NCBI RefSeq assembly: GCF_029223585.1
Contig: NZ_CP119424.1
Coordinates: 1,984,001 to 2,048,000, forward strand
DNA length: 64,000 bases
Origin: Photobacterium sp. DA100
GTDB lineage: Bacteria > Pseudomonadota > Gammaproteobacteria > Enterobacterales > Vibrionaceae
Direction of reading: 5' to 3'
Both the position numbers and the translations under genes were made by a program. How positions within the stretch are numbered: the stretch's first letter is position 1; every line of letters begins with the position of its first letter. This document shows positions 21,493 to 37,681 of this stretch, one piece after another. The notes beneath the pieces were generated by a model, which saw nothing but the letters and a program-made list of their open reading frames with translations, was not told the origin of the DNA and ran no database searches.

Positions 21493-22797
21493 ATGAAACA
21501 GCGCCTACTAACCAGCCTTATGACAGCTAGCCTGATTGCCGGGCTAGGTACAGCACATGCCGCCGTAATGGACGGATTTCCAGCTTCAGGCGAGACCCAG
21601 GTCACCGCCAGTAACTGGACGCTGCCCACCTACAACCAATGGGCATTTCGCAATGTCGGTATCCACCCGTCAGTCATGGTGCCACGCGATGGCGAGACAG
21701 TTACGATCCCTTACAACATGAATGAAACCCTTGAGCAGGCGACCTTTGAATACCAAGGTGAAAAGGTCACTCTATTAGAAGCGCTGGCAGCTGATCACAC
21801 CGATGGGTATTTAGTGATCAAAGACGGCCAGATTGTCTACGAGCGCTACTTCGGTGAATTCGGGCCGCGAGATCACCACCTGTGGGCATCCAGCACCAAG
21901 TCATTAGTCGGGATGGCGGCAGGGATCCTAGTCGAGCAAGGCCAACTGGATACCGAGAAGAAAGTGTCTGCTTACATCCCCGAGCTGAAAAACAGCGCCT
22001 TTGCCGAGCGTACCGTTCGCGACGTGCTCAATATGATCACCGCGCTCGATTACAGCGAGGATTACGTCAACATGGAGCCGGGCGCAACCAGCACCGAGTA
22101 TTTCCGCCGCCTGGGCTTTATTCCCGCTTATGATCTGATGGCACTCAATCCGGCCAAGGACAACACCCCAAGAGGGATCCAGGCATTCCTGCCAAGCCTC
22201 GAACAGAACCCGGAGCTATCGCCACGGCATAAGTTCGAGTACCACTCACCGAATGTCGATGTCATCGGCTGGATCATCGAACGCCAGAGCGGCCAGCCGT
22301 TGCAGACCTATATTGCAGAGAATATCTGGGGCAAGCTGGGCACCGAGCACGATGCCTTCTTCATCACCGATATCGCCTACACGCCGGTGGCGACAGGCGG
22401 ATTCAACACCACGTTGCGTGACTTTGCCCGCTTCGGCCTGGCCATGGCCAACAACGGCCAGTACAACGGCGAGCAGCTCTTCCCGGAGAAATGGGTCAAG
22501 GACACCTTTATCCTGAGCGAGGAAGAGCGCCAGCATGTCCGCAAAAGTCAGTACAAAGATACCGGACATGTTACTTTCGACGACAAGCTAACCGGTTACA
22601 AGAACTTCTGGTGGATCCATGATGAGGAAAAAGGTATCGCCACCGCCCGTGGCGTGTTTGGCCAAACCCTGTACGTCAACCAAGACAAGAACGTGGTGAT
22701 AGCCACCTTCTCCAGCGCGCCAAGTGCCTCCAACGCCGCACGGGATAGCTACAAGCTGAAACTGGATCTCACCCATCAGCTAGCCGAGCAGCTGTAG
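21493..22797 (+). CDS. secreted serine hydrolase, class C beta-lactamase/NylB-like fold
   Basis: 434 residues from ATG 21493, preceded by AAGAAGG; the frame extends upstream without a better start. Signal peptide MKQRLLTSLMTASLIAGLGTAHA, cleaved near residue 23. Catalytic SxxK is Ser133-Ser-Thr-Lys136 in HLWASSTKSLVGMAAGILVE, and the second motif region is KFEYHSPNVDVIGWIIE. Family members include 6-aminohexanoate-dimer hydrolase and esterases with the class C fold. The true substrate is unknown, and calling it a beta-lactamase would be unsafe. Periplasmic. A terminator that is duplicated elsewhere in the window follows. Confidence 0.87.
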   Translation: MKQRLLTSLMTASLIAGLGTAHAAVMDGFPASGETQVTASNWTLPTYNQWAFRNVGIHPSVMVPRDGETVTIPYNMNETLEQATFEYQGEKVTLLEALAADHTDGYLVIKDGQIVYERYFGEFGPRDHHLWASSTKSLVGMAAGILVEQGQLDTEKKVSAYIPELKNSAFAERTVRDVLNMITALDYSEDYVNMEPGATSTEYFRRLGFIPAYDLMALNPAKDNTPRGIQAFLPSLEQNPELSPRHKFEYHSPNVDVIGWIIERQSGQPLQTYIAENIWGKLGTEHDAFFITDIAYTPVATGGFNTTLRDFARFGLAMANNGQYNGEQLFPEKWVKDTFILSEEERQHVRKSQYKDTGHVTFDDKLTGYKNFWWIHDEEKGIATARGVFGQTLYVNQDKNVVIATFSSAPSASNAARDSYKLKLDLTHQLAEQL

Positions 22798-22820: not shown

Positions 22821-22870
22821 TTCACCGCCTGCCCAGACCCGACCGGGGCCGGCGGTTTTTACGTTCACAA
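22821..22870 (+). repeat. 50-bp direct repeat, copy 1
   Basis: Identical over 50 bases to 36634-36683 in the same orientation. The match stops exactly at both edges (the next bases differ). It contains a complete rho-independent terminator and bounds the left side of the dihydroxyacetone module. Confidence 0.97.
22824..22860 (+). terminator. rho-independent terminator of the serine hydrolase gene (copy 1)
   Basis: ACCGCC-T-GCCC pairs with GGGC-C-GGCGGT (one mismatch) around an 11-base loop, then a T run. It starts 27 bases after the stop. Confidence 0.85.
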
Positions 22871-22907
22871 CAGGTATATAAATCCGTTTGATCTACAATA
22901 TAATTTT

Positions 22908-23135
22908 TTATTCCCGCTGCGCTTTCAGCTGTTTGATATGCTCAGAAAGTTTTAATGTGAAATAACCAATGATAACGAGCAACGAAGCATAAAGCGCTGC
23001 AACGCCATCGAATTCAAATAGTCTGACTTTATTCAGGGTAAGCGCTAAGAAAGTACCGCAGAGGACGGTCAATATCCAATAGTTGGCTCGGGCATGTTCA
23101 AGTTTATCTTCAAGTTGTTCTGGATTAAGTGTCAT
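22908..23135 (-). CDS. small two-TM membrane protein
   Basis: 75 residues. A polar helical N-terminus (MTLNPEQLEDKLEHARANY) leads to two hydrophobic segments (~19-35 and ~45-62), then a Lys/Glu-rich tail. Its ATG overlaps the stop of the DeoR gene (ATGA), so it is translationally coupled and last in the minus-strand operon. I know no family. Its position suggests a role with the regulator or the carriers of this module. Confidence 0.75.
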   Translation of the reverse strand: MTLNPEQLEDKLEHARANYWILTVLCGTFLALTLNKVRLFEFDGVAALYASLLVIIGYFTLKLSEHIKQLKAQRE

Positions 23136-23842
23136 TGGATAACCTCTATTACATGCTCAATGTTAACCATCGAACAGACTTTGAATGGGTATGCTTTTGA
23201 TTGTTTGTTTATTTGAGGGTGGAGAATAATATTACTCTTCTTTGCTTTTGATAGAGCGAGCCGTTGCCTGACAGCCTTGTTCATGCACTCACTGAGCGCA
23301 AAACCGTCACTGTCGATGCAGTCGACCTCAACAATCGCAATATCAATAGATTCGAATTCTCCTCTATAAATAAAATCAGGATAATGAAAGCTATCATCGC
23401 GTAGGCCAAAGCTGCCGCCCAAAAAATACATCCTGATGTTCGCTTTATTAGCAATTAGATGATGGACTCTGGGGTTATTCGTCAGAATCCTCAAGTCATG
23501 ATCAGGCAATATACTCACCAGGGTTTCAGCGAGATAAGGACTGTCGATATAAATATTGCAACCTTGGAAAATGGCAGGTAGTACCTGTCTGGCAATGAGC
23601 CTTTGATTGCAATCATTCCTTCTTCCCGTTTTCGACGGAGCGCCTGAATTTTTTGCTCCACCGTGATGCCGCCTTAACTTGCGTTGATCGGCCAGCGCAT
23701 TGAGATCCCGGCGAATAGTATAATTACTGACATTGAAATACTCCGCAAGCTCGGTAGTGCTAATAGCCTCTGATTCATTAAGCAGGGACAATATCTTTTC
23801 CCTTCGAATTTGTGATTTGGATGTTTTTACAATTTCTCTCAC
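23132..23842 (-). CDS. DeoR-family regulator
   Basis: 236 residues from a GTG start with AGGA upstream. DeoR HTH at ~10-65 (RREKILSLLNESEAISTTELAEYFNVSNYTIRRDLNALADQ), then a sugar-phosphate-isomerase-like sensor domain (NIYIDSPYLAETLVSILP, LRILTNNPRVHHLIANK, YFLGGSFGLRDDSF). DeoR sensors usually respond to phosphorylated sugars. It is co-directional with the gldA-dhaKL genes, 138 bases after the 7-TM gene, so it may sense a product of this pathway. Confidence 0.87.
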   Translation of the reverse strand: MREIVKTSKSQIRREKILSLLNESEAISTTELAEYFNVSNYTIRRDLNALADQRKLRRHHGGAKNSGAPSKTGRRNDCNQRLIARQVLPAIFQGCNIYIDSPYLAETLVSILPDHDLRILTNNPRVHHLIANKANIRMYFLGGSFGLRDDSFHYPDFIYRGEFESIDIAIVEVDCIDSDGFALSECMNKAVRQRLALSKAKKSNIILHPQINKQSKAYPFKVCSMVNIEHVIEVIQ

Positions 23843-23911
23843 GTCCCATCCTGCCCAAAAAATCTATTGCACAATGCCATGCATATGAAATAGAAGGTAA
23901 TTAAAGCGACC

Positions 23912-23940
23912 AAAGGGGGGATGGGATACCCCCCTTTTTT
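23912..23940. terminator. G/C-box hairpin terminator
   Basis: GGGGGG-8-CCCCCC flanked by AAA and TTTTTT. The long T run favours termination on the plus strand; read on the minus strand the same hairpin is followed by TTT and would end or attenuate the gldA-to-7-TM transcript before deoR. Direction is uncertain. Confidence 0.6.
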
Positions 23941-23979
23941 GTATTGAAGGATTTGCTTGAATTTGTTTATCCGATATTT

Positions 23980-24807
23980 TTAATTCACAAAGTGAGCATA
24001 ATCGAATGTGAAGAACGGCACAGCAATCATCAGCAAAGACCATGCAACTAGAATGACGTGCAGAACATCGTTCTCAGAGAACCAAATTTTCTTCTCTTTC
24101 CAAAGCACCTCACCAATACCTGCCTTCCAATACTTATCGTAGAAGTAGTATGAAGCATAAATCAGAGCCCAGGAGATCATGCAAAGCAAGTCATAAGTAG
24201 CGCCCGTCTTGATATAGCTTACCGTGTTGATGAAGATGAAAGCGATGAAGCTTGGCAGTGATGCCATCATCATAAATTCAAAGGTGATCACCGATTTAGT
24301 TGCGGTAAACGCACCCCAGAATGTAATGATAGTGTAGCCAACGGTCATGATCGCAGCATACCAAATGAAGATATCAAACCAAATTGACTCCGGTGGTATT
24401 GAGGAATAAGCAATTGCAACCGTCATTGCGTTCATACTCACCTGCTGGAAGATAAGGTAAATAACTTCCCACCATGTAGTCCACGAACACTCTTCACGGT
24501 ATTTGGCTTTGAGTTCGTAACCGAATGCTTGATAACTGGTACCGGCAATAATCGCGCCGACGCCCCAAAGGATCATCGAAATACCCCACCAAAAGCGCGA
24601 CATTTGACCATCTTGCATCACAAGGAACTGAACACCTACCAATGTGACGATAACACCCAACAGGTACACCCAAAACGTTGATGAAGGCTGGCTAATATCG
24701 AGTTCTTTGCCTAAAAAATTGACACGAACAAGCGGCTGCTCCTCGCCCCAATTCTGCTTAGTCAACGTGGGATGCTTAATCTCATGGACTTTCTCAAAAA
24801 TTGACAT
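23980..24807 (-). CDS. unrecognised seven-helix membrane protein of the glycerol/dihydroxyacetone operon
   Basis: 275 residues; AGAGGAAATT upstream gives a good ribosome binding site. After a ~40-residue polar N-terminus (MSIFEKVHEIKHPTLTKQNW) I count seven hydrophobic segments (near 43-63, 70-92, 109-132, 140-165, 173-196, 203-222 and 248-268). Two of them are rich in Trp and Tyr (RFWWGISMILWG, IYASYYFYDKYW). No known carrier motif is seen. It lies 50 bases after the MDR oxidoreductase gene. It could be a transporter, a membrane enzyme or a partner of the oxidoreductase; I cannot decide. Confidence 0.75.
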   Translation of the reverse strand: MSIFEKVHEIKHPTLTKQNWGEEQPLVRVNFLGKELDISQPSSTFWVYLLGVIVTLVGVQFLVMQDGQMSRFWWGISMILWGVGAIIAGTSYQAFGYELKAKYREECSWTTWWEVIYLIFQQVSMNAMTVAIAYSSIPPESIWFDIFIWYAAIMTVGYTIITFWGAFTATKSVITFEFMMMASLPSFIAFIFINTVSYIKTGATYDLLCMISWALIYASYYFYDKYWKAGIGEVLWKEKKIWFSENDVLHVILVAWSLLMIAVPFFTFDYAHFVN

Positions 24808-24857
24808 TTTAATTTCCTCTAAAAAGTCGAGGTTCAGCGAACCCCGACCTAACTCAA

Positions 24858-26003
24858 TTAATCTTCGTGGTCAGGAATAAGAACAAGCTTGCCAACATGT
24901 TTGCGGCTCACCAGTTCTTTTTGGGCTTCAACGATGTCTGAGAGAGGGAAGGTTTTAGAAAGAGCAGGTTTAATTTCACCTTTTTCGATGGCCTCAATCA
25001 CACTCGGGAATACCGCTTCATCCCAACCAGTACAACCAACAAGAGTCAGATCTCTTAGGTACATAGTACGGAAATCTAGATCAACGATTGGACCTGCGAT
25101 TGCACCAGAAGATGCGTACCGACCACCACGCTTAAGCAGTTTTAGGTTGTTTACGAAGTTCTCACCCGCTACGTTATCAATGATGATATCAACCGACATT
25201 TCACCCAGAACGTCTAGTGCATTTTTACCAAAGTCGATGACTTCATCAGCACCGTATGAGCGAACACGTTCGATTTTATCTTCACCTTCAGCAGCTGCGA
25301 TAACGTAAGCCCCACGACGTTTGGCAAGCTGCACAACCGCAGAGCCAACACCGCCAGATGCACCCGCAACATACACGCGATCACCCGCTTTTACGCCTGA
25401 GCGTTGAACCATATTTTCAGATGTGCCGTAGGCACATGGAATCGTGCCCAGTTCAGCATCGCTCCAGTCACACTCAACTGGGAATACTTCGCTTGCTGCA
25501 ATCTTCACATATTGGGCGAAGGCGCCGTCAAAATCAGAAGCCATCCAAATATTCTCACGAGATTCAAAGCCTTCGTGACGAATACAGGCACGGATGAGGA
25601 CACGTTTACCAACAAGGTGTTGATCAGCTTCATCTTTTGCTTCAACAACTAGACCAGCACAGTCGGTGCCTTGGATGAAAGGGAATGGCGTTGCTTCACT
25701 CCAGCCACCATCGCCTTCTTTCGCTGCTGCGCCCTTCTCTTCGTCGTTTTCGGACATATCATTGGTACTTTTCGTTACTTTTGATGAATACCAACCAAGA
25801 CGAGTATTGATTTCAGTATTATTGACACCAGCTGCAAGTACTTTAATTAATACTTCACCTTCGCTGATAACTGGCATTGGTACATCTTTGTACTCCAGCA
25901 TTTCATAGCCACCGTTACCCATGGTAACGACCGCCTTCATTGTTTTTTGGCCAGCCTTGATTTCGAAACGGCTTTTGTCATTGTTAATATTCATTTTAAA
26001 CAT
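24858..26003 (-). CDS. MDR-superfamily NAD(P)H-dependent oxidoreductase
   Basis: 381 residues from ATG 26003 (AGAGA upstream). Rossmann block GVKAGDRVYVAGASGGVGSAVVQLAKRRGAYVIA around 207-236, and typical MDR flanks (MKAVVTMGNGGYEMLEYKDVP, GEVLIKVLAAGVNNTEINTR). The position holding the zinc-ligand Cys in alcohol dehydrogenases reads NNTEINTR, so it is probably a zinc-free quinone-reductase-like member. A ~30-residue charged insertion (~75-100) precedes FIQGTDCAGLV. It lies between the MFS carrier and the 7-TM gene in the same operon. Substrate unknown. Confidence 0.85.
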   Translation of the reverse strand: MFKMNINNDKSRFEIKAGQKTMKAVVTMGNGGYEMLEYKDVPMPVISEGEVLIKVLAAGVNNTEINTRLGWYSSKVTKSTNDMSENDEEKGAAAKEGDGGWSEATPFPFIQGTDCAGLVVEAKDEADQHLVGKRVLIRACIRHEGFESRENIWMASDFDGAFAQYVKIAASEVFPVECDWSDAELGTIPCAYGTSENMVQRSGVKAGDRVYVAGASGGVGSAVVQLAKRRGAYVIAAAEGEDKIERVRSYGADEVIDFGKNALDVLGEMSVDIIIDNVAGENFVNNLKLLKRGGRYASSGAIAGPIVDLDFRTMYLRDLTLVGCTGWDEAVFPSVIEAIEKGEIKPALSKTFPLSDIVEAQKELVSRKHVGKLVLIPDHED

Positions 26004-26084
26004 AATATTTCTCTACTCTACTTCTTGCATGAGTCGACACTCATACTTTATCTAAACTAATTTTTATATTTTATGCGGGTTAAT

Positions 26085-27386
26085 TTAATCAGCTTTTGCT
26101 GACTGCAAATTAATTTCATCAATTTGAGGTTCGGTGGATTTTTTCTGCTCGCGTTTATAGAGCATTGTCACAAGTACACCAACAAGGCCAACCATCATGC
26201 TGACAATAAAGTAGGCGTGGTATCCACCTTCATTGCCGTACAAATCCCACAAAATATTGTTCATCTCTGGAATGATGATATCTGGGATATAACCGACCAC
26301 AGAAATAACGCCGATTGCTGTACCCATTATTGCCGCATCAATTTTTGACTGGCCGAGGAGAGACCAATAAGTTCCCCTAATGATATACGAGAATAGACCC
26401 GTAACCATTACAAGAGCGGTAATTAAGTAGGTTGGTAGTGTATTGGGTACCATGACTAAAGCACCTAAACAAATAACCCCTCCTAGAATACCGGCGGCAA
26501 TAGTATTGGCCTGGCCAAGTTTATCCGCAAGGAAACCGCCTAGTACACCACCAATTGGACGCATCCATAGTAGGCCGACCATCATAGAGCCAACGGTTAC
26601 AGCATCAAATCCCAATCCTGTTTGCAGGTAACCACCAATATAGTAACTAGTCCAAAAGATGGTGTAGCCAGCAAAGATGATCATACCGTGTAGGTAAACA
26701 AATTTGTTTTTAAATACTTTACCGATATCTGAAAGTTTGATTTTGCTTTCTTCACCAGAGCTTGCTGACGCCGCCGCTTCTTTATCTTCTTTTACAAAGA
26801 TAATAATCAATACAGCAACAACAACCAGTGCAATAGAGTACATGTACACAACAGATTCAAGCGCGAGCTTTTTATCCGTGTATTCTAGACCGCCACCAAG
26901 CACTGAAGTGAATATCATTAGCGCGATACTCGCTAATGCCGCTTCAACTAGGCCCCGGCCACCATCAAGAATACCGAAAAAGCGCCCTTCCTCACCGTCT
27001 TTCGCCAGCATTTTGGTGATCTTCAAATGTGCGCCCCAGAAGGTAAACACAGAAGAGAATCCCCAAATACCAAAAATCAGTAGGACACTGGTGTAGCTAG
27101 GGACTTGTGCAAACCAGAAACCACCGGCTGCTGTACCTAATAAAGAAACCGCTAATAATTTCTTTGCCGAAAATTTGTCACACAGGACACCACTCGGAAA
27201 ATATCCTATTAAAAATACAAAACCTAATATCGTATATATTGTGTTCATCTGTCCCATTGACATATTAAACACTTCTAAGATGGTTTCTTGGTACTGGGCT
27301 TTTAAATACACCAGAGGAAATATAGCGCCACCGGCTAGAATAACCAGTGCAAACTGAAAATACCTTGCTAAGTTATCTTTTTTCAT
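26085..27386 (-). CDS. MFS transporter (YihN-like)
   Basis: 433 residues with about 12 TM segments and a central cytoplasmic loop (~205-230, KEDKEAAASASSGEESK). The N-terminus MKKDNLARYFQFALVILAGGAIFPLVYLK and the motif A-like YFPSGVLCDKFSAKKLL fit the organic-solute MFS group that includes E. coli YihN. It lies between dhaKL and the MDR gene on the same strand, so it probably imports the substrate of this operon, perhaps glycerol-related or a short polyol. AAGGT precedes the ATG. Confidence 0.85.
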   Translation of the reverse strand: MKKDNLARYFQFALVILAGGAIFPLVYLKAQYQETILEVFNMSMGQMNTIYTILGFVFLIGYFPSGVLCDKFSAKKLLAVSLLGTAAGGFWFAQVPSYTSVLLIFGIWGFSSVFTFWGAHLKITKMLAKDGEEGRFFGILDGGRGLVEAALASIALMIFTSVLGGGLEYTDKKLALESVVYMYSIALVVVAVLIIIFVKEDKEAAASASSGEESKIKLSDIGKVFKNKFVYLHGMIIFAGYTIFWTSYYIGGYLQTGLGFDAVTVGSMMVGLLWMRPIGGVLGGFLADKLGQANTIAAGILGGVICLGALVMVPNTLPTYLITALVMVTGLFSYIIRGTYWSLLGQSKIDAAIMGTAIGVISVVGYIPDIIIPEMNNILWDLYGNEGGYHAYFIVSMMVGLVGVLVTMLYKREQKKSTEPQIDEINLQSAKAD

Positions 27387-27458
27387 ATTATTGACCTTAA
27401 GTCTGCACTGGTTTACCAGAAATACAGAACTACTTTATTTCACGAAGGGTCACTCTTA

Positions 27459-27484
27459 AGGTGCAACCACAGGTAATTGCACCT
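27459..27484. other. stem-loop between dhaKL and the MFS gene
   Basis: AGGTGCAA-10-TTGCACCT, a perfect 8-bp stem in the 159-base gap inside the operon. Neither strand shows a T run directly after it. It may stabilise or process the mRNA, or be a binding site. Confidence 0.5.
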
Positions 27485-27545
27485 CAAGGTTTTTACACAA
27501 ACCGCTATTTTTTATATAAGTGTGTTTGTGCGCTGTCGAGCGGGC

Positions 27546-29174
27546 TTATTTCGAGAACTTGCTGAATACAGATTCTACCGCGTAAGCACCTGGATCTTTT
27601 GTCCCTGATAGGCTGTCGCTGTTCAGGTAAGAAGAACGTCCGGCTTTAGCACTGCTCATGTTTACGGTTGCTTCTGCCCCCGCTTTCGCTGCGTCAATGG
27701 CGGCATTAAAGCCTTGGTTGACCCAAGCTTCCAGAGCTGGGTGCAGTGCATCGATCATGGTACGATCACCCGGTTTGGCACCGCCATAAGCCATCATTTG
27801 ACCTAGGCCTTCCTGCAGAGCTTTTGCTAGAGAGCCGTTTTGTTCAAAGTCGCGGCCTGCTGCGGTTAACATGATTGACAGCAGGACACCTGAAGACCCC
27901 CCCATTACTGATGTTAAGCAATCAGCAATCGTCGTTAGCAGCTTCGCATTGTCTTGTAGTGGAAGTTGGTTCGCTTCTAGTTGTGCTAGCACTTTACGCG
28001 CACCAGCAGCAAACGTTGAGCCGGTATCGCCATCACCGACAATAGAATCCAGGTGGTTCAGCTCTGCTTCGATATCAATCACAGACTGGCAGACTTTACG
28101 GAGCACCAAAGCCACTTCTTCGTCGTGAGATGGCTCGAATACCTTCTTCTTGATGAGGTTTTCACATTTCGTTACTGGAACTTCACGACGCGCAACCATG
28201 CCAGGCCATGCGTCTGCTTCCACGTCAGCAATCAACGCATTGACAACCTTATCGTCAAGCTGAATAGCAGAGATAGAGAAGCCTTTCATATCGATAGCAG
28301 TGACGAGTGAGCCTGTTACGATTAGCTGAGTGTTTTGACCAAGCTCTGATTCCATCACTTCTTTCGCTACGATGTTCATCTCAATCGGAGATAGACCGCC
28401 GAGGTTATTAAGAAGAATCGCATTTTCTTTGATTGGCTTAGCTTCAACGATCTTGCTTACCATAGTCGCAACAAGTGCTTTTGCCTGAGGCAGCTCAATC
28501 GTTTCGATACCAGGTTCACCGTGGATGCCTAGACCCAGCTCAGCTTTACCCAAAGCAATACGGTCGTTGCTTTCACCGGGTAGCGAACAACTCGTCAGCG
28601 CCACGCCAATCGAAGCGGTTTTTTCACACGCATCAACCGCTGCTTGCTTCACGTCTTCAAGCGTACCGCCATTCTCCGCAACATAACCCGCAACTTTCTG
28701 GACAAATAGCGTTCCTGCGATACCGCGTGGCTGTGGGTTGCCAGGAATCGAGATATCATCGCCAACAACAATCAGATCAACCTTACGGCCCATCTCTTTT
28801 GCTTTCTCGACGGCCAAGCCGAAGTTCAAGCGATCACCGGTGTAATTTTTGATGATAACCAAACAGCCAGCGTCACCGGTTACATGTAGGATAGCATTGA
28901 GTACCGCATCAACACTTGGTGCCGCAAACAGGTCACCGCACACAGCCGCGGTTAGCATGCCTTTCCCAACGAACCCTGCGTGCGCAGGCTCATGACCAGA
29001 ACCGCCGCCACAAATTAGCGCAACCTTGTCTTTATTCCAGTCATTGCGCGCAACGACTTTAATGTCGTTGTCAAAATCCAAAAGAGTCAGGTTTTCTTTT
29101 TTCGCTGCGTACAGTGTTCCATGAATTGAATCGAGAACAAATGAATCTTTGGTATTTAAAATCAGATCAGACAT
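27546..29174 (-). CDS. dihydroxyacetone kinase, single-chain DhaK-DhaL fusion (ATP-dependent type)
   Basis: 542 residues, close to the Citrobacter ATP-dependent enzyme. K domain (~1-330): CGGGSGHEPAHAGFVGKGMLTAAVCGDLFAAP and LGLGIHGEPGIE, whose His binds the substrate covalently in this family. L domain (~345-542): NHLDSIVGDGDTGSTFAAGARKVL supplies the metal/nucleotide Asp residues, with GGSSGVLLSI and KAGRSSYLNSDSLSGTKDPGA further on. It phosphorylates dihydroxyacetone, or a related ketose, with ATP. It follows gldA by 57 bases, a route from glycerol to dihydroxyacetone phosphate. Confidence 0.92.
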   Translation of the reverse strand: MSDLILNTKDSFVLDSIHGTLYAAKKENLTLLDFDNDIKVVARNDWNKDKVALICGGGSGHEPAHAGFVGKGMLTAAVCGDLFAAPSVDAVLNAILHVTGDAGCLVIIKNYTGDRLNFGLAVEKAKEMGRKVDLIVVGDDISIPGNPQPRGIAGTLFVQKVAGYVAENGGTLEDVKQAAVDACEKTASIGVALTSCSLPGESNDRIALGKAELGLGIHGEPGIETIELPQAKALVATMVSKIVEAKPIKENAILLNNLGGLSPIEMNIVAKEVMESELGQNTQLIVTGSLVTAIDMKGFSISAIQLDDKVVNALIADVEADAWPGMVARREVPVTKCENLIKKKVFEPSHDEEVALVLRKVCQSVIDIEAELNHLDSIVGDGDTGSTFAAGARKVLAQLEANQLPLQDNAKLLTTIADCLTSVMGGSSGVLLSIMLTAAGRDFEQNGSLAKALQEGLGQMMAYGGAKPGDRTMIDALHPALEAWVNQGFNAAIDAAKAGAEATVNMSSAKAGRSSYLNSDSLSGTKDPGAYAVESVFSKFSK

Positions 29175-29231
29175 CTTAAACCTTTAATAATATGGATAAT
29201 CGAGTAAGTTAATTCACGTCACAGCGTGACT

Positions 29232-30314
29232 TTATTGGCCTAATTGATGTGCTGTCAGAATTGCAGCGTATACAGCGTCCGCGGTTACCGGGAATGGCAT
29301 ATTGTGGATCGTTTCACCTTCCGCGGTTGCACCTTCCGCCACCTCACGCAATTTGTCGTGGTTCAACTCTTTCACCCCCATGGCGAATAGGTTGGTCGGC
29401 AGTCCAACCGAGCGGCAGAAATCAAGAACGGTGTTGATTTCTTCCAATGGCGCATTTTCAAGAACAAGTTGAGTCAGCGTACCGAATGCGACTTTCTCAC
29501 CATGGTACAGGTGGTGGCACTCTTCCAGCTTGGTCAGGCCATTGTGGATAGCATGCGCGGCTGCAAGGCCGCTGCTTTCAAAACCAATACCGCTCAGGTA
29601 GGTATTGGCCTCGATAATGTTTTCTAGGGCGGTGGTACTCACACCGTTTTCTGCCGCTACTTTTGCTTTCAGGCCGTCAGCAAGCAGGGTTTCGTAACAA
29701 AGCTTAGCCAGCGCTTGAGCCGAACGAGTTGGTGCACCGCCAGCCATTGTTGCCTTGCCAGACGTCATGTTTGCACGGGCTTCAAAATAAGTAGACAAAG
29801 CGTCACCCATGCCAGCAACGAGCAAACGCACTGGGGCTTTAGCAATGATCGCAGTGTCCATCACCACCATATTTGGGTTCTGCGGAAAGAGTAGGTACTC
29901 ACTGAACTCACCTTCCGGCGTGTAAATCACAGCAAGCGCAGAAGTCGGGGCATCGGTTGAGGCAATGGTCGGAACAACAACAACAGGTACCTTCGCGTAG
30001 TACGCCACGGCCTTGGCGGTATCGAGAGTCTTACCACCACCAATACCAATGATGACGTCGTTCTGCTGGGAAGCGGCAATATCAATCAGGCGATCGATTT
30101 CCTGACGCGAACACTCGCCATTGAAGAGATCCATCGTGAGTGGCATTTGCTCTTTGTGGAAGCTATCTTTGACTGTGCCGCCAACCAAGCCTGTTACAAA
30201 TTCATCAGCAATCGCAAGTGGGTTTTCACCAAGCGCTTTTACATAGCCAGCAATTGAGCCCAGTACGTTTTCACCTTGAACGTATTTACTTGGGCTAATA
30301 ATAATTTTATCCAT
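29232..30314 (-). CDS. gldA: glycerol dehydrogenase
   Basis: 360 residues, the usual size. NAD-binding block [44 protein letters not shown] (~90-135). Metal-site region: the Asp in [16 protein letters not shown], the first His in [38 protein letters not shown] and the HLYHGEKV His. It oxidises glycerol to dihydroxyacetone with NAD+. First gene of the minus-strand operon; its upstream region holds a pair of DhaR-like boxes. Confidence 0.94.
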
Positions 30315-30505
30315 GAGCGTGGGACCTTCATTTGTGTTGTTTCAACGATAGGTGAATCCTAAATAACGAAGATCAGTATTGAGAAGAAATTGTCGCGCAT
30401 TTTAAATTGAATTTTGATAGCCACATCAAATCTCTCCTCTTGGTACTTCTGCCAACGAGGAAAACAATAACCCAATCACATTTTAAGCTACGGCCTATTA
30501 ATTTA

Positions 30506-30520
30506 GTTTCAAAATGAAAC
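30506..30520. promoter_or_regulatory. DhaR-like palindromic box 1 (gldA/dhaK region)
   Basis: GTTTCA-AAA-TGAAAC, a perfect 6-3-6 palindrome. It is 33 bases (centre to centre) from box 2. The same motif recurs near dhaR. Confidence 0.75.
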
Positions 30521-30538
30521 AACCACCAATAATTAAAT

Positions 30539-30553
30539 GTTCCAATACGAAAC
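30539..30553. promoter_or_regulatory. DhaR-like box 2 (gldA/dhaK region)
   Basis: GTTCCA-ATA-CGAAAC, a degenerate copy of box 1. It ends 12 bases before the -35 of the dhaK promoter, a fitting activator position. Confidence 0.65.
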
Positions 30554-30565
30554 ATAAAGATTTAA

Positions 30566-30594
30566 TTGATCCTCGTGTTTGAGATACCTACTAT
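30566..30594 (+). promoter_or_regulatory. sigma-70-type promoter of dhaK
   Basis: TTGATC (30566-30571), 17-base spacer, TACTAT (30589-30594). Each hexamer matches consensus at four positions, as expected for an activator-dependent promoter. No GG/GC sigma-54 signature was found in this region. Confidence 0.5.
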
Positions 30595-30632
30595 GAGCAA
30601 AGCCCTATGAATAAAAGCTGTCGAATCTAATC

Positions 30633-31691
30633 ATGAAAAAGCTGATCAATAACGTTGAAGATATTGTTTTAGAACAAATTGCGGGGCTCGCCGCCTCACG
30701 CCCCGAGCTGAACATAAATCGCCACCCTTGCTATGTATGGCACGACCAATCTCCCGATCAAGTCGCCCTGGTATCCGGCGGCGCCTCCGGCCATGAGCCG
30801 ATGCATGTCGGTTATGTGGGCAAAGGCATGCTGACCGGGGCCTGCCCAGGGGAAATATTTGTCCGTGCAACACCAGACCAGATATACGAATGCGCCAGCC
30901 AAGTCAGCAATGACAAAGGCGTGCTGTTCCTTATAAAAAACTACAAAGGTGACGGCAAGAACTTCAAACTTGCCGTTGAATTGCTCCATGCAGACGGCAT
31001 AAAAGTCGGCTCGGTGCTTATTGATGACGACATTGCGGTACAGGATAGTTTGTACACCACAGGGCGCCGTGGCATTACGGGCACGGTGCTGGTAGAGAAG
31101 ATCGTTGGTGCCGCCGCAGCGAAAGGCTACTCACTTGAGCAATGCGAAGAGCTGGGCCGTCGAGTAAACAACAACTGCCGCTCCATTAGCGTGGCGATGC
31201 GGGCCTGTGAGGTGCCGGCCGCGGGCCAGCCTTCTTTTGAACTGGCGGAGAACGAGGTCGAATTCGGGATCGGGATACATGGAGAGCCGGGCATTGAGCG
31301 CTTTGAGTTCACCAGTGCTGACGACTTGGTTGACAAAATGTTTATCGCACTGAAAGAGAACGTGGAATACAGTCGCACGCTGCGCATTTGGAACCGTGAA
31401 GAGGGGCTGTGGGAAGAAATTGAGTCCAGCATCGAGCCATTCGACGCAGAGCAGGACTACATCGCCATCGTCAACGGCCTTGGCAGCACTCCTCTTTCTG
31501 AATTATACCTTGCATACCGCCGCTTGGCCGAGTGCAGCAAGAAGGCCAATTTTCGCATCGCACGCAACCTAGTCGGCAACTATTGTACGGCTCTGAACAT
31601 GGAAGGTATATCGATCACCCTACTAAAAGCAGATCAAGAAATGGTTGACCTATTTGATGCCCCTGTCGATACGGCGGCGCTCAAGTGGTAA
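30633..31691 (+). CDS. dhaK: dihydroxyacetone kinase subunit DhaK (separate, PTS-type)
   Basis: 352 residues, matching E. coli DhaK (356) from MKKLINNVEDIVLEQIAGLA onward. VSGGASGHEPMHVGYVGKGMLTGACPGEIF, IDDDIAVQDSLYTTGRRGITGTVLVEKI and EFGIGIHGEPGIERF carry the substrate-binding and covalent His residues. PTS-type DhaK works with ADP-bound DhaL recharged by DhaM. dhaL follows 27 bases later but no dhaM is in the window. In E. coli DhaK also acts as corepressor of DhaR, and a dhaR-type gene lies just downstream. Divergent from gldA. Confidence 0.92.
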   Translation: MKKLINNVEDIVLEQIAGLAASRPELNINRHPCYVWHDQSPDQVALVSGGASGHEPMHVGYVGKGMLTGACPGEIFVRATPDQIYECASQVSNDKGVLFLIKNYKGDGKNFKLAVELLHADGIKVGSVLIDDDIAVQDSLYTTGRRGITGTVLVEKIVGAAAAKGYSLEQCEELGRRVNNNCRSISVAMRACEVPAAGQPSFELAENEVEFGIGIHGEPGIERFEFTSADDLVDKMFIALKENVEYSRTLRIWNREEGLWEEIESSIEPFDAEQDYIAIVNGLGSTPLSELYLAYRRLAECSKKANFRIARNLVGNYCTALNMEGISITLLKADQEMVDLFDAPVDTAALKW

Positions 31692-31718
31692 CACCTGCCC
31701 CAGCAAGGAGCCGAAGCA

Positions 31719-32354
31719 ATGCAAATTGAAAAGCAGCACATCGTCAATTGGCTAGCACTTTGTGCGAGGACCTTTGACGAAAACCAGCAATTTCTCACCG
31801 ATCTTGACCGTGATCTCGGTGACTCTGACCACGGTGTTAACCTTAACCGTGGTTTCAAAATCGTTGCCGAAAACCTGCCATTGGTAGAGAAACAGAACAT
31901 TGCGACGATTTTGAAGAACACCGGAATGACGCTGCACTCCAATGTGGGAGGGGCCAGCGGTCCTCTGTATGGCACGCTGTTTGTCCGTGCGGCGGCAACA
32001 GTCGGCACGCGGGAACAACTCTCGTTTGACCAGCTTATCGATTCCCTGAAAAATGGCGTGGATGGTATTGTCTCCCGCGGTAAGGCGGGCGTGGGTGAAA
32101 AAACCATGTGCGATGTTTGGCTGCCTGTCCTTGAGGCCGCTAAGGCACAGTTAGCCGCCGGCTCACCGGTTGAAACGGCGCTTGACAAGATGGTGGAGAC
32201 GGCGGAAAAAGGCGTCGTTGCGACCATCGAAATGCAAGCCCTTAAGGGGCGGGCCAGTTATTTGGGGGAACGCAGTATAGGCCATCAAGACCCGGGGGCG
32301 ACGTCCTCCCTCATGATGATCAAGACTCTCGCCCAGGTGCTGAAAAGCCATTGA
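31719..32354 (+). CDS. dhaL: dihydroxyacetone kinase subunit DhaL (separate, PTS-type)
   Basis: 211 residues, as in E. coli (210). LDRDLGDSDHGVNLNRGF holds the Asp residues that bind Mg-ADP, GGASGPLYGTLFVRAA and GRASYLGERSIGHQDPGATSS are the other family blocks. AAGGAG lies ~12 bases before the ATG. In E. coli DhaL-ADP activates DhaR, so it may be both catalyst and signal. A GGCAGCG/CGCTGCC inverted repeat at 32375-32404 lies between it and the convergent regulator gene and may help termination. Confidence 0.92.
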   Translation: MQIEKQHIVNWLALCARTFDENQQFLTDLDRDLGDSDHGVNLNRGFKIVAENLPLVEKQNIATILKNTGMTLHSNVGGASGPLYGTLFVRAAATVGTREQLSFDQLIDSLKNGVDGIVSRGKAGVGEKTMCDVWLPVLEAAKAQLAAGSPVETALDKMVETAEKGVVATIEMQALKGRASYLGERSIGHQDPGATSSLMMIKTLAQVLKSH

Positions 32355-32418
32355 TAAACGGTGGGGATTGACTAGGCAGCGTGATTAGGCACTATCTCGC
32401 TGCCAATGCAACTACATG

Positions 32419-34347
32419 CTAGTCAGACTCCATCATGTCGACCAGCTGGTACTTCTTCACCTTGCGCCACAGTGTTGTCCGCCCGATATCAAGTGCTTTT
32501 GCCATTTCCTGCATCCGCCCACCATATACCCTCCAGGCCTCAATGATCGCTTGCTTTTCAACATCTTCCAACGTCATAACAGAAATCGTCACCACCGATT
32601 CCTGCGGTGAGTAAAGCCTGATTTCATCCGGAATATCCTCAAGCTCGATATAGTTCGAGCTTCGGTTCAACAGGATGCGCTCAATGTGGTTCCTCAATTC
32701 AGAATTGTTCCCTGACCAGTGAAAGTTGAGCAACGCCTCCTTGACCTTTTTATCCACCTCGATAGCGACATGGTGCCTCTGCTCGTAGTTGCTGAGCAGT
32801 TTCAGGATCATGTGTTCAATGTCCTCTTTACGCTTTCTTATCGGTGGTACGTGCAGTTCATTGGCAGAAATATCGTAATAGAGTTGACGCGAGAATGATC
32901 CCTGAGAGACCTGGTCACCGATATTTACCGTCGTACTGGTGATCAGTTGAAACTTCACGCTAATCAACCGCTGGCTGTCACTGCGGCTGACCAAACCGGT
33001 CTTAAGCAATTTCAACAGAGCGGCTTGCAGCTCTGGACCTAGGAGCTCTATATTCTCGACATAAAGGGTACCGTTCTGTGCCAGTTCGAACTTGGATAGT
33101 TGTCCTTCGCCCTCATCAGAACCCAGCACATCTCGCAGTAGCTGGTGCGGATTGGTTGAGCGGCAGTTTAGGGTGATGAAGGGTCCTTCGCCGTAGGCAC
33201 TCTCGTTGTGGATTGCCATCGCCAGCCCAGTCTTGCCAACCCCCTCCTCACCGGTGATCAGGATAGGCGCCTGAGTCTTTAGCGCACGGCGTGCCACTTT
33301 GATCACATGTTTCATCTGCTGGGAGACAACTGGCAAGCTGTCGAATGTATATTTGGCGCTACCCACGACTTGCTGCTGGATCATTTCGCGAAACTTGTCG
33401 AGCGGGTGGATAAAAAGCAAGTGAATCCCGTCAGAGATGCAGCGGTAAGTCACAATGGCTTCGATAAAACGGCCGTCAATCTCGAAGGTGGTCTGCCGGC
33501 GGCGCACCATTTCCCCTTGCTTGATACTGCTGAGGATATTGGGGGCAAAACGAATAACGGTAAAGATATCGCGCTCCAGTAGATCATTGCCATGCACACT
33601 CAGTAGCTTCTCGGTCTGGTGGCTGATGTAGGAGATCAAGTTCTCGCCATCCCAAGAGATAATACCGTCATCCATATATTCCAGTGCTGCGCTGTGGGCC
33701 GACTGAAGGCGGTTCATGTTTTCCTGCTCGTTTTGGATATGAAGCTGCAAGCTGACCTCTTTGGCGCACGAGGACGCGATAGCAAGATTCTCGCGCATGT
33801 ACTCCCCGGCGTGCCTGACGAGCATAATCGTGCCGCGCAATTTACCAAATGTATCAATTACGGGTGCGGCAGCACTGGCTATGTCATGGAGCTCACGCTT
33901 GAAGTGGTCGCCAGCGAACACTTCGCAGGGCATATTGGTATCGATGGCGAAGCTCACCGCATTCGTCCCGATTTTATCCTCGCTCAAAAAGCAACCAACC
34001 TTGATCCCAAGCGCTTCCATCTTCGATTCAAGCTCGGGGTGACCGATAGTGAACATCACACAGCCATTATCATCTGTCACCAGCAGCAGTAACTTTTCCT
34101 CACGCAGCAGGTCGTATGTATCCTCAACAACAGTCACCGCACAGTTGATGACCCGTTCGGTGCGTCTCTTCAAAGAAGCGAGAGTGAAACCGGAAGCGAT
34201 ATGCGGCCTTGACCAGTCATAGGCATTCATCTGCTTGACACAGCGCTGCCAGGAATGGAATACCGGCGAATCCGAGAACTCTGGTGATACCCATTGGTGC
34301 TTTTGGAAAAACTCCCAGCGGGTTTTACTATCTTCGATCGAGAGCAT
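32419..34347 (-). CDS. dhaR: DhaR-type regulator with degenerate AAA+ domain
   Basis: 642 residues: GAF-like sensor (~60-200; LLLLVTDDNGCVMFTIG, GTNAVSFAI), PAS-like domain (~215-315), AAA+ domain (~333-560) and a Fis-type HTH (~590-640; GGRMQEMAKALDIGRTTLWRKVKKY). Walker A is GEEGVGKT (366-373). The stretch DVLGSDEGEGQLSKFELAQNGTLYVENIE lacks GAFTGA, the sigma-54 contact loop, and Walker B reads VENIE rather than a DE pair. E. coli DhaR is reported to act at a sigma-70 promoter. Here it is convergent with dhaKL, with boxes upstream suggesting autoregulation. Confidence 0.88.
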   Translation of the reverse strand: MLSIEDSKTRWEFFQKHQWVSPEFSDSPVFHSWQRCVKQMNAYDWSRPHIASGFTLASLKRRTERVINCAVTVVEDTYDLLREEKLLLLVTDDNGCVMFTIGHPELESKMEALGIKVGCFLSEDKIGTNAVSFAIDTNMPCEVFAGDHFKRELHDIASAAAPVIDTFGKLRGTIMLVRHAGEYMRENLAIASSCAKEVSLQLHIQNEQENMNRLQSAHSAALEYMDDGIISWDGENLISYISHQTEKLLSVHGNDLLERDIFTVIRFAPNILSSIKQGEMVRRRQTTFEIDGRFIEAIVTYRCISDGIHLLFIHPLDKFREMIQQQVVGSAKYTFDSLPVVSQQMKHVIKVARRALKTQAPILITGEEGVGKTGLAMAIHNESAYGEGPFITLNCRSTNPHQLLRDVLGSDEGEGQLSKFELAQNGTLYVENIELLGPELQAALLKLLKTGLVSRSDSQRLISVKFQLITSTTVNIGDQVSQGSFSRQLYYDISANELHVPPIRKRKEDIEHMILKLLSNYEQRHHVAIEVDKKVKEALLNFHWSGNNSELRNHIERILLNRSSNYIELEDIPDEIRLYSPQESVVTISVMTLEDVEKQAIIEAWRVYGGRMQEMAKALDIGRTTLWRKVKKYQLVDMMESD

Positions 34348-34373
34348 TCAATTATCTTTACGTCATGGCTGCC

Positions 34374-34412
34374 AAACAGGGGGGAGTGTAATCGCTCAAG
34401 CCCTGTTTTTTT
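34374..34412 (+). terminator. terminator-like hairpin in the dhaR leader region
   Basis: AAACAGGG pairs with CCCTGTTT over a 19-base loop, followed by T residues on the plus strand. It would stop antisense transcription into the BCCT side, or fold in the minus-strand leader of dhaR, 27-65 bases before its start. Function uncertain. Confidence 0.4.
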
Positions 34413-34495
34413 ATCTGGTTCAATCACAATTATGGGACTGGGGTGGGTTTAATAACCATATTAGTAGAAAAAAGTGAAAGGAATGTCAGACAGCG

Positions 34496-34510
34496 TTCCA
34501 TTTTGAAACA
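34496..34510. promoter_or_regulatory. DhaR-like box 3 (dhaR/BCCT region)
   Basis: GTTCCA-TTT-TGAAAC. Left half matches box 2, right half matches box 1. Confidence 0.7.
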
Positions 34511-34528
34511 AAAAAGCCATCAAATCCG

Positions 34529-34543
34529 TTTCATATTGAAACA
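34529..34543. promoter_or_regulatory. DhaR-like box 4 (dhaR/BCCT region)
   Basis: GTTTCA-TAT-TGAAAC, a perfect 6-3-6 palindrome. Centre to centre it is 33 bases from box 3, the same spacing as boxes 1 and 2. Confidence 0.75.
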
Positions 34544-34729
34544 CATCAAGATTGAATCAAAAATAAAAGTGATCGAGGTAATACTTTTTCACTTTTCGGT
34601 AGACGTTCTCGACGAGATTTGACATAAACCTCAAAGTTCGCCGCCCGATAATTGATAATTTCTTCGTAAACCTAACGTTCATATTTAGGATAGCCCTAAC
34701 GTTGAAACATATTGAGGGGCACAATAATC

Positions 34730-34831
34730 ATGAACACATTAAATAAACAGATTAACTATATAAAAAATAAAAAGATTTTAACTGCCGTACTGGTTGTGGC
34801 TGTCGAAATAACAACCACAAACAACCTTTGA
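34730..34831 (+). CDS. possible 33-residue peptide or truncated gene start
   Basis: ATG 34730 follows GAGGGG at a slightly long spacing. The peptide has a basic start (MNTLNKQINYIKNKKIL) and a hydrophobic stretch (TAVLVVAVEI), then stops. It resembles a signal peptide without its mature protein, so it may be a small membrane peptide, a leader, or the remnant of a lost secreted protein. Confidence 0.3.
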   Translation: MNTLNKQINYIKNKKILTAVLVVAVEITTTNNL

Positions 34832-35065
34832 AACCAATAATCGAGTTTAAAACATTATTTTTATTAAACTTATTCGTTTAATGACATTTAAAACCAATAC
34901 TCCATAACTGGGATTAGCTCACAAATACAATATTGGCATGCCATTACTCACCTGCACACTTATGAAATCTATTTAATATTCAAGGTTTAGCCGGCAGTCA
35001 ATTAGGTATATGAAATACAAGGTGAGCGTTAAGTGATTGGTTACCCACCAGTAACGGATTAACCC

Positions 35066-36625
35066 ATGAACAACATATTACGCTATAAAATATTTCTTCC
35101 GCCACTCTTTGTTTTACTCTTCGCCGTACTAGCGAGTTTTTTTAATTTCCCCGCTTTTTTAACCGTGACAACCATATTAAATGATTGGATTTTAAATACT
35201 TTTGATTGGTTATTTTCGGCAGGGGCTTTTGTTATGGTAATAACCTGCGTAGCCGTGTTCTTATCCCCGCTGGGAGGGATGACGATCGGAGGAGATAATG
35301 CCAAGCCCATGCTGAGTAAGTGGCGCTGGGGATCGATTACAATCTGTACCACCACGGCAGCCGGCATGTTGTTTTGGGCGACCGCCGAGCCGCTTTATCA
35401 CCTGCATACTCCCCCCCCGTCGATGGGTTTGACCCCGGGCAGCCCTCAAGCGGCAGAGTTTGCGCTATCAACCATGTATATGCACTGGTCGTTTACGCCC
35501 TTCGCCATCTATGCCGTTCCGGCGCTTTCGTTTGCGCTTGCCTTCCATAACCTGAGCAGCCGCTTCTCGATCAGCTCGGCACTACAGCCGGTGCTAGGGA
35601 AGCGGTACTCCGGCACAGTGGGAGGAACCGTGGACTCCATTTCAATGTTTGCCCTCGTGGCAGGGATGGCTTCGTCCCTGGGTACCGGCGCCCTGGTACT
35701 ATCAAGCGGCATTGCCAAAGTGACCGGCTGGGCCAATAACACCATGCTGCTCGGGCTTGTTATCGCACTCATTGTGATCTGTTTTGTCGCCTCTTCGGTG
35801 TCAGGACTGCACAAAGGCATAGCACGACTATCGTCAATCAACACCTGCATCTTTGCCACCATCGCCCTCACCGCGTTTATATTCGGCCCGACCCAGGCGA
35901 TCATCGCCAACGGCTGGCAAGCCCTGACAGACTATGCCTCCGAGTTCGTGACACGCAGCTTCTCGCTGCAACTCGCTGAAGGAGATAACTGGGCCAAGAG
36001 CTGGACAGTGTTCTACTGGGCAAACTGGTTAGGCTGGTCACCCATTGTGGCTCTGTTCCTCGGTAAAATCGCCCGTGGCCATACAGTCAGAGCATTCTTG
36101 GTCGTCAACCTCATTATCCCCGCCTCTTTCTCTTTGCTCTGGATGGCGATTTTCTCCGGGATGATCCTGGAGTTGGATCTCAGCAGCAACGGCGCTTTCT
36201 ATGCCCTGCTCAATGAGAGCGGTCCAGGGGCTGTGGTTTACGGCCTGCTTGAGCAACTTCCAGTCTCATCGGTCCTGATCGGGATGTTCATTTTTATCGC
36301 TTTCTTGGCCTATGTCACCGCCGCTGATTCAAATACTGAAGCCATCTCTTCGCTGTGTATGGAAGCCAATCATACGGAGCAGAAGGAAGCAGCCGCGATA
36401 AAAGCCCGGCTGAAAGTCATGTGGGGCACTATTATCGCACTCGTTGCTTGGTTCATGACGGCATTCTCGGGTATCGACGGCATAAAAATGATGTCCAACC
36501 TAGGCGGGCTTCCTGCCTTATTTGTCGTGATCACGATGAATGCAGCCCTACTGGTATGGCTCTATCAAAGCTTTATAGAATGGCTAGCGCCAACCCGGCA
36601 GCATAAAATCAGCCTCAGAGGTTGA
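35066..36625 (+). CDS. BCCT-family transporter
   Basis: 519 residues with about 12 TM segments. Family blocks include FSAGAFVMVITCVAVFLSPLGGMTIGGDNAKP, AAGMLFWATAEPLYHL and the aromatic substrate-helix block STMYMHWSFTPFAIYAVPAL. BCCT carriers move betaine, choline, carnitine or similar quaternary ammonium compounds. The C-terminus is short, without a long osmosensing tail. The first ~60 codons are more A+T-rich than the rest. The ribosome binding site is weak. It shares its upstream region with dhaR and the boxes, so it may belong to the dha regulon; substrate unproven. Confidence 0.88.
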   Translation: MNNILRYKIFLPPLFVLLFAVLASFFNFPAFLTVTTILNDWILNTFDWLFSAGAFVMVITCVAVFLSPLGGMTIGGDNAKPMLSKWRWGSITICTTTAAGMLFWATAEPLYHLHTPPPSMGLTPGSPQAAEFALSTMYMHWSFTPFAIYAVPALSFALAFHNLSSRFSISSALQPVLGKRYSGTVGGTVDSISMFALVAGMASSLGTGALVLSSGIAKVTGWANNTMLLGLVIALIVICFVASSVSGLHKGIARLSSINTCIFATIALTAFIFGPTQAIIANGWQALTDYASEFVTRSFSLQLAEGDNWAKSWTVFYWANWLGWSPIVALFLGKIARGHTVRAFLVVNLIIPASFSLLWMAIFSGMILELDLSSNGAFYALLNESGPGAVVYGLLEQLPVSSVLIGMFIFIAFLAYVTAADSNTEAISSLCMEANHTEQKEAAAIKARLKVMWGTIIALVAWFMTAFSGIDGIKMMSNLGGLPALFVVITMNAALLVWLYQSFIEWLAPTRQHKISLRG

Positions 36626-36633
36626 GCACTGTT

Positions 36634-36683
36634 TTCACCGCCTGCCCAGACCCGACCGGGGCCGGCGGTTTTTACGTTCACAA
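36634..36683 (+). repeat. 50-bp direct repeat, copy 2
   Basis: Identical to 22821-22870, same orientation, starting 8 bases after the BCCT stop. Bounds the right side of the dihydroxyacetone module. Confidence 0.97.
36637..36673 (+). terminator. rho-independent terminator of the BCCT gene (copy 2)
   Basis: Same hairpin and T run as the terminator at 22824-22860, here 11 bases after the BCCT stop. Confidence 0.85.
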
Positions 36684-37679: not shown

Positions 37680-37681
37680 CG

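Follow-up and report, generated by a model that had tools for sequence, protein, structure and literature searches.

A dihydroxyacetone and glycerol gene block bounded by two copies of a terminator in a Photobacterium chromosome

A block of genes for dihydroxyacetone and glycerol catabolism (13,763 bp, ~13.8 kb; 22871–36633 of the 64,000-nucleotide stretch analyzed here, referred to as the window) was probably acquired horizontally by entering the intergenic terminator that separates a serine hydrolase gene from a LysR gene, leaving a 50-bp terminator on both sides. We give this reading, together with the crossover route and the role of DhaK and DhaL as a sensor discussed below, a probability of about 0.75. 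There is good support for acquisition at the terminator and for the repeat as the footprint of that event, as both states of the site are in hand: filled in the genome holding the window (G000), and empty in that of a sister species (G012), from which the block is absent. The locus therefore presents a complete catabolic block, in a chromosome and with no recognizable mobility gene, for which the empty and filled sites are both known. Because the insertion duplicates the terminator, it should disturb the transcript of neither neighbor.

The 50-bp repeat and its empty site

The two copies, at 22821–22870 and 36634–36683 and both on the plus strand, form an exact direct repeat (50 of 50 bases identical) with mismatched bases immediately outside on either side, as the original prediction had described, and they are the only direct repeat of at least 24 bp found within the 64-kb window. 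A 22-base core matched twice in the window, while none of 100 shuffled sequences contained any match. The left copy, which marks the left edge of the insertion, begins 24 bp downstream of the stop codon of the serine hydrolase gene (21433–22797, plus strand) and folds into a GC-rich hairpin that leads into T5 (−19.2 kcal/mol, z −2.2, 5 of 200 shuffles as good). The right copy, the right edge, starts 9 bp after the stop codon of the BCCT carrier gene and folds in the same way (−19.9 kcal/mol, z −2.1, 3 of 200 shuffles as good). Both had been taken for working-looking terminators behind plus-strand genes, and the folds agree with this, even though a terminator-like pattern by itself is weak evidence, since a scan of 21–38.5 kb gave 26 of them against 17.8 expected. 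A tRNA or other known RNA as the insertion site was rejected, none being present in the window.

It could be argued that the copies belong to a dispersed family of terminators and flank the block by coincidence. Nothing was found in favor of this idea, which retains practically no probability and is refuted by the lack of copies outside the locus. The genome-wide search that had been proposed as a check returned not many copies but two at up to 3 mismatches, both at the edges of the block, and at the same threshold G012 has one copy and the other 50 genomes of the genus have none. The empty site has a single copy, and the 37-base core occurs only at the serine hydrolase/LysR locus, in 2 of 329 family genomes (G000 and G012). 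Likewise, viral contigs gave no exact match to a 30-base core, and at the edges of the block in other genomes (six loci tested) the best ungapped match to the 50-mer was 28 of 50.

In G012, the serine hydrolase gene is followed by one identical 50-mer and then by the LysR gene (36789–37679 of the window, plus strand), which is the empty site that had been predicted; a close relative lacking the block but carrying two copies or none did not turn up. The serine hydrolase protein is 97% identical in G012, with a next-best match of 61%, and the LysR regulator 99%, the LysR gene of this locus being present in G000 and G012 only. Because only two genomes hold the locus, gain in the G000 lineage and precise loss in G012 cannot be told apart, and both scenarios require an insertion that duplicated the 50-mer. 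We consider it rather improbable that the block was ancestral to both genomes, having entered before the species split, and was then lost precisely from G012 by recombination at the 50-mer. Recombination between the repeats would yield exactly the G012 arrangement, and there is no third genome with the locus to polarize the change. However, the low GC3 of the genes in the left half of the block (37–53%, against 66–71% in three native neighbors, a set that excludes the ADP-ribosylglycohydrolase, at 58.5%, and the permease, at 63.6%, which lie in a neighboring indel) argues for a recent arrival, the two 50-mers are undiverged, and one would still have to assume an earlier insertion that made the same duplication.

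Other indels between the two genomes served as controls. They were chosen by rule (a gap of >800 bp on one side and ≤200 bp on the other) in an 800-kb comparison, in which 14 of 36 gaps were not clean and were dropped, and four indels of the window, the block and three others, were added by hand. Of the resulting 26 clean indels, the glycerol block alone had a direct repeat of >11 bp. These data also bear on a possible, if less probable, origin of the block, in which a linear foreign fragment was joined without site specificity at a break near the terminator, the 50 bp being copied by fill-in of staggered ends or by an upstream template switch; the hairpin may then mark fork stalling or breaks and not a recognized site. 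Such joining would fit with the absence of a recombinase among the genes found in the block, with a 50-mer that is not a dispersed site, and with the many other clean indels that show a short repeat or none, which suggest that end-joining-like acquisition is common on this chromosome. It fits less well with the lack of any duplication >11 bp at the other 25 clean indels and with a duplicated piece that is a complete terminator.

For the acquisition at the terminator that we prefer, the most likely route would be a single reciprocal crossover, by RecA or a tyrosine recombinase supplied in trans, in which the chromosomal terminator recombined with a circular molecule that bore the block together with the same 50 bp. 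As the copied segment is a complete terminator, the serine hydrolase gene would lose nothing and the incoming BCCT gene would gain a terminator. Against this route, neither a circular form nor a recombinase was seen, and the 50-mer has no known donor, its core being found among the 329 family genomes only in G000 and G012; the closest match to a tyrosine recombinase in the genome is >170 kb distant along the contig. The repeat had been called an att-like footprint: the empty site upholds the footprint, but a recombinase att site finds no support in a block with no recombinase detected inside and a core confined to two genomes. It is a doubtful extension that recombination takes place at the terminator hairpin itself, with circular metabolic cassettes that lack a recombinase being inserted into intrinsic terminators by one provided in trans. 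If true, each insertion would remake the terminator of the host gene and provide the cassette with one, allowing a transcriptionally neutral spread in Vibrionaceae.

Gene content and predicted function

From left to right, the minus strand of the block carries a 75-aa small membrane-like ORF (22908–23135; a 66.7% nucleotide match to the locus of a Vibrionaceae MAG at 22922–23146), a DeoR-family regulator (23132–23842), a 275-aa membrane protein (23980–24807) with no Pfam match and one relative matching DUF6962, a zinc-type (MDR) dehydrogenase (ADH, 24858–26003), an MFS carrier (26085–27386), the single-chain dihydroxyacetone kinase DakF (27546–29174), and the glycerol dehydrogenase GldA (29232–30314). 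They are followed by the subunits DhaK (30633–31691) and DhaL (31719–32354) on the plus strand, the regulator DhaR (32419–34347, minus strand), whose model matched well over its cut-off, and the BCCT carrier (35066–36625, plus strand), the rightmost gene. All the genes originally named (gldA, two dihydroxyacetone kinase systems, carriers, DhaR, and DeoR) were thus found. The ADH, the 275-aa protein, and the 75-aa ORF at the left edge had not been named. No integrase, recombinase, or transposase family was detected among the ten block genes by Pfam, nor in the 75-aa ORF, as had also been anticipated.

Judging by their families, GldA would oxidize glycerol to dihydroxyacetone and DakF would phosphorylate the latter with ATP. 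DakF unites the Dak1 and Dak2 domains in one chain, and its residues 3–539 align to its nearest solved relative, 1UN9; it scores below the cut-offs of the NCBIfam glycerone kinase model TIGR02361 (523.6 vs. 574.95 bits) and of the subfamily model NF011049 (454.6 vs. 492). DhaK and DhaL are both above their NCBIfam cut-offs, so these two components of a PTS-type DhaKLM system are present. For the phosphoryl donor DhaM (TIGR02364), on the other hand, G000 gave no match, while the model performed as expected in the controls E. coli, L. lactis, and Haloferax; elsewhere, 5 of the 11 genomes searched had a match to it beyond the fetched block regions. A kinase role for DhaK and DhaL with another phosphate donor is possible, as the alignments of both to solved kinase subunits run along their length and cover the presumed catalytic motifs with His and Asp. 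Since DhaM was not found in the genome, they may instead act mainly as the dihydroxyacetone sensor of DhaR, of which they are described as co-regulators in a previous study (PMC5890353). DhaK, DhaL, and DhaR without DhaM, beside a single-chain kinase, would be a set on which the conversion of a kinase into a sensor could be tested.

Composition and distribution of the block

As noticed originally, the minus-strand part of the block is richer in A+T: GC per kb over 23–30 kb, the left half, is 42–50%, against 53.3% in the window outside the block, with flanking stretches at 17–19 kb and 52–53 kb equally low. From sequence comparisons, the block is a mosaic, the left half resembling V. pacinii/aestuarianus and the right half Vibrio sp. 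CAU 1672, with a breakpoint at 30200–30632 that takes in the gldA 5′ end together with the divergent promoter region of gldA and dhaK. This conclusion comes from the left tree, in which grouping the window with CAU 1672 was rejected (p about 1e-63), and from a switch in identity at about 30.2 kb. The right-half tree joined the window to CAU 1672 (support 99/99), with the grouping of the window with pacinii/aestuarianus/MAG not rejected by the AU test (p = 0.109).

DakF was present in 1 of 52 genomes of the genus, while the block or most of it was found in nine Vibrionaceae genomes of another genus (several Vibrio species), six of which preserve the complete gene order between the 275-aa gene and BCCT; weaker ADH matches (58–66%) occurred in 10 further genomes. 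The genes flanking the nine other blocks differ, except in one sister pair and for two weak matches to paralogs. By these sequence relationships, the block is foreign, horizontally acquired, and apparently circulating among Vibrionaceae as a unit. Acquisition or duplication had both been suggested; the former stands, whereas duplication is disfavored by a single genome match to DakF at E ≤ 1e-60. A plasmid origin was rejected after a comparison with 72,556 plasmid records gave no close match. Because no exact repeat >13 bp flanks the nine other blocks (flanks of ~4.5 kb, with 2.6 kb only on the left side of the MAG, where the contig ends), the 50-mer edge structure is not general to the block. 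Its occurrence in eight different chromosomal neighborhoods of other Vibrionaceae makes it a test case for the movement of operons free of integrase and transposase.

Transposase families do lie near two of the other blocks (G107 and the MAG), and the direct repeat derives from the target, so that a transposon might have carried the block and left the 50 bp as a target-site duplication. We regard this as very unlikely: the inside genes include no transposase family, no inverted repeat of at least 24 bp was found in the window, and the 40 bases at the two ends of the block are by eye not inverted copies of each other, leaving the block short of both hallmarks of a composite transposon, transposase and terminal inverted repeats. 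Moreover, usual target duplications of transposons are far shorter than 50 bp.

Relation to known systems

As in site-specific integrative elements, the block has end repeats and a single-copy empty site; it differs in lacking a detected integrase of its own and, in the 37-mer and 30-mer searches, no att site used by other elements or genomes. Comparable are the CIMEs, the integrase-less remnants of integrative elements, which also hold cargo between two direct repeats, with a one-copy empty site and no recombination genes inside. Here, however, no integrase-bearing relative was found, no autonomous element sharing the repeat having been detected in viral contigs or in the family genomes (one genome per species), and the repeat, instead of a tRNA or other gene end, is a terminator between genes. 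When islands insert at tRNA genes, they reconstitute the 3′ end of the tRNA; in the block the rebuilt unit is a terminator and no integrase was found, but in both cases the duplicated target restores the interrupted host unit. A search of an open-access library gave no title or opening of an abstract that dealt with the block or with the insertion of metabolic blocks at terminators.

The metabolic islands of Vibrio parahaemolyticus chromosome 2 are, as described, likewise catabolic modules gained and lost, some with flanking direct repeats (PMC6537148). They span 26 to 135 kb and have integrases and/or transposases inside or next to them, while our block stands alone at 13.8 kb with neither found. 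In its content, the block shares homologs of GldA/DhaD, DhaK, DhaL, and DhaR with the dha regulon of Klebsiella and with dhaKLM-dhaR of E. coli (PMC4777399, PMC5890353, PMC6643234). In contrast to these systems, no DhaM was found in the genome, and the block adds the single-chain kinase and the BCCT, MFS, ADH, DeoR, and DUF6962-related genes.

Insertion bounded by a duplicated terminator

The glycerol/dihydroxyacetone block (22871–36633) is flanked, as had been claimed from the sequence alone, by identical 50-bp direct repeats, located at 22821–22870 and 36634–36683. This pair was the sole direct repeat of at least 24 bp found in the 64-kb window, and its 22-base core had two matches in the window vs. 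none in 100 shuffles. The search for further copies suggested with the original prediction gave a total of two in the whole genome (6.01 Mb) at up to three mismatches. The left copy is directly 3′ of the stop codon of a plus-strand serine hydrolase gene, and the right copy directly 3′ of that of the plus-strand BCCT carrier gene. In folding, both showed a GC-rich hairpin followed by T5. Of 200 shuffles each, 5 and 3 folded as well as the two copies, only a moderate margin over chance, so the function of the 50-mer as a terminator is likely rather than proven.

Among the 52 genomes of the genus (own included), the 50-mer was found, besides the window's own genome (G000), only in the sister genome G012, once. 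There, the gene order is serine hydrolase, one identical 50-mer, and LysR, which is the empty site that had been predicted. In the alignment, G012 is continuous from its left flank into the left 50-mer and from the right 50-mer into its right flank, and of the 80 flanking bases shown, one differs. The window's genome has a surplus of 13,763 bp and a second 50-mer. The finding is real: the block is a well-bounded insertion with the terminator duplicated at its edges. Loss of the block from G012 by recombination between the two 50-mers is possible and would yield the same picture, the locus being known from two genomes only.

Probable route of insertion

The filled and empty states and the uniqueness of the repeat are observed. 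Insertion probably took place by a single crossover of the chromosomal terminator with a circular molecule that bore the block together with its own copy of the 50-mer. No recombinase families were found among the genes inside the block, nor any tyrosine recombinase family match inside the window, but G000 has 11 stretches matching the latter family (some are pieces of one gene), so a recombinase may have acted in trans. RecA acting on the 50 bp is also possible, and the main rival to the crossover is a staggered break or template switch that produced the 50-bp duplication. Of the proposed att-like footprint, the insertion bounded by a duplicated terminator and the empty site were borne out, while the att site itself is an attractive but unproven reading.

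For comparison with other indels, 800 kb of the same chromosome were used (G000:C2 1148001–1948000 against G012:C1 1–800000), of which 503 kb aligned in a colinear chain with a mean identity of 95.3%. There were 36 gaps >800 bp, 22 of them clean, and several gaps are clean insertions of 10–15 kb. The junction overlaps of the 22 clean gaps were ≤11 bp, with no exact direct repeat >11 bp within 150 bp of a junction, and three more clean indels inside the window had overlaps of 0, 5, and 0 bp. The block is thus one of 26 clean indels, and nothing similar occurs at the other 25. The chromosome is very plastic; the repeat footprint of the block nevertheless stands out.

Adjoining the block is a second clean indel of 4.5 kb (37680–42189), absent from G012 at the same place and without a flanking repeat. 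It carries genes for GntR, an ADP-ribosylglycohydrolase family protein, a purine/cytosine-type permease, and a sugar-kinase-like protein (the last called from its ORF, with no family search). A 3.9-kb stretch (44752–48695) is also absent from G012 at the same place, with a 5-bp overlap, and opposite 48839–49031 G012 carries 6.8 kb extra.

Distribution and mosaic structure of the block

DakF was matched at E ≤ 1e-60 in only one of the 52 same-genus genomes, the window's own. A scan of named records gave 16 loci, and at six of them the block recurs with its gene order kept: V. aestuarianus, V. pacinii, V. sp. CAU 1672, V. maerlii, V. halioticoli, and a Vibrionaceae metagenome-assembled genome (MAG). 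Ten further Vibrio/Enterovibrio loci (L022–L026, L028–L030, L032, and L033) have a DakF/GldA pair whose order is reversed, with DakF leading; no other part of the block lies within 10 kb, bar weak DhaR-like matches (25–29%) in the three Enterovibrio loci.

Of the 329 genomes of the family, 20 had an ADH match at E ≤ 1e-120; in 10 the identity was ≥76%, these being the window's genome and nine from another genus. All nine keep the order mem275 (a 275-aa membrane protein)-ADH-MFS-DakF-GldA, and DhaK-DhaL-DhaR come next in all nine, inverted in two (G259 and G288). BCCT (≥73%) is next in six of the nine, and DeoR was matched (43–45%) in two. BCCT at E ≤ 1e-200 was found in 9/329 genomes, in seven of them (own included) within the block. 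DhaR was matched at E ≤ 1e-150 in 38/329 genomes, including four same-genus genomes besides the window's own (55–56%), so the dha genes themselves are commoner than the block; the rarity belongs to the whole block.

The block occupies different chromosomal places in different genomes. When 159 flanking ORFs were compared between block loci (E ≤ 1e-15), broad sharing was limited to the G259/G288 pair, with two weak, paralog-like matches: patatin-type proteins (52%; G107 and G184) and LacI-type proteins (28–31%; CAU 1672, V. halioticoli, and the window's right flank). Pfam families, from which gene names were inferred, cover 30 of the 32 genes nearest the block at eight loci (G288 left out). By these, the neighbors include acs and aroQ/accB in V. 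pacinii, trmA and a DUF1422 gene in V. aestuarianus, hslVU and a UDP-sugar dehydrogenase gene in V. halioticoli, and glmS in G259; in G107 and the MAG, transposase families were found close to the block. No exact repeat >13 bp flanks the nine other-genus blocks, and the best match to the 50-mer at six of these loci was 28/50. The inverted DhaR-DhaL-DhaK variant of G259 (L063) and G288, with no BCCT beside it, adjoins the glmS 3′ end (family call on G259 only), a known insertion hot spot.

Identity to the window, computed in 300-base bins, was 71–92% up to ∼30.2 kb and 20–71% beyond for V. pacinii and the MAG. For CAU 1672, it was 50–76% up to ∼28.7 kb, 74–83% from there to 30.2 kb, and 53–81% beyond (68–81% when the last bin and those between dhaR and BCCT are set aside). 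The tree of the left genes grouped the window with V. pacinii, V. aestuarianus, and the MAG (support 100/100), and a window and CAU 1672 grouping was rejected for these genes (p about 1e-63). The right-gene tree gave the latter grouping (support 99/99), the alternative not being rejected (p = 0.109). The breakpoint of the mosaic is near the gldA start and the divergent promoter region. GC3 was 37–53% in the left genes, 61–64% in the right genes, and 66–71% in three native neighbors. Elsewhere in the window, a low-GC stretch (17001–19000; 42%) holds a 163-aa ORF (18225–18716) with no Pfam match.

Predicted function of the block genes

The closest solved relatives of GldA are glycerol dehydrogenases, and DakF aligns along its length to 1UN9, a single-chain kinase, though scoring below the NCBIfam cut-off; together, they would form a path from glycerol to DHA to DHAP. 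The 275-aa membrane protein (23980–24807) had no Pfam match and 959 relatives at E ≤ 1e-3, of which two were checked: one matches DUF6962 and the other matches nothing. BCCT, MFS, ADH, and this DUF6962-related protein may handle a quaternary amine or related substrate, yielding DHA or glycerol.

DhaK and DhaL are good matches to PTS-type subunits. The DhaM model, positive in the controls (E. coli, L. lactis, and Haloferax), had no match in G000 and was matched in five of the 11 genomes searched. Searches of V. aestuarianus, V. pacinii, V. halioticoli, and the MAG, which like G000 have the block with PTS-type DhaK/DhaL and DhaR (30633–34347 in the window), also gave no DhaM. We propose that DhaK and DhaL here would mainly sense DHA for DhaR, with DakF doing the kinase work. 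The other five block carriers have DhaM elsewhere in the genome. The proposal follows from the lack of a DhaM match in G000 and from the enterics, in which DhaR is described as regulated by DhaK and DhaL (PMC5890353).
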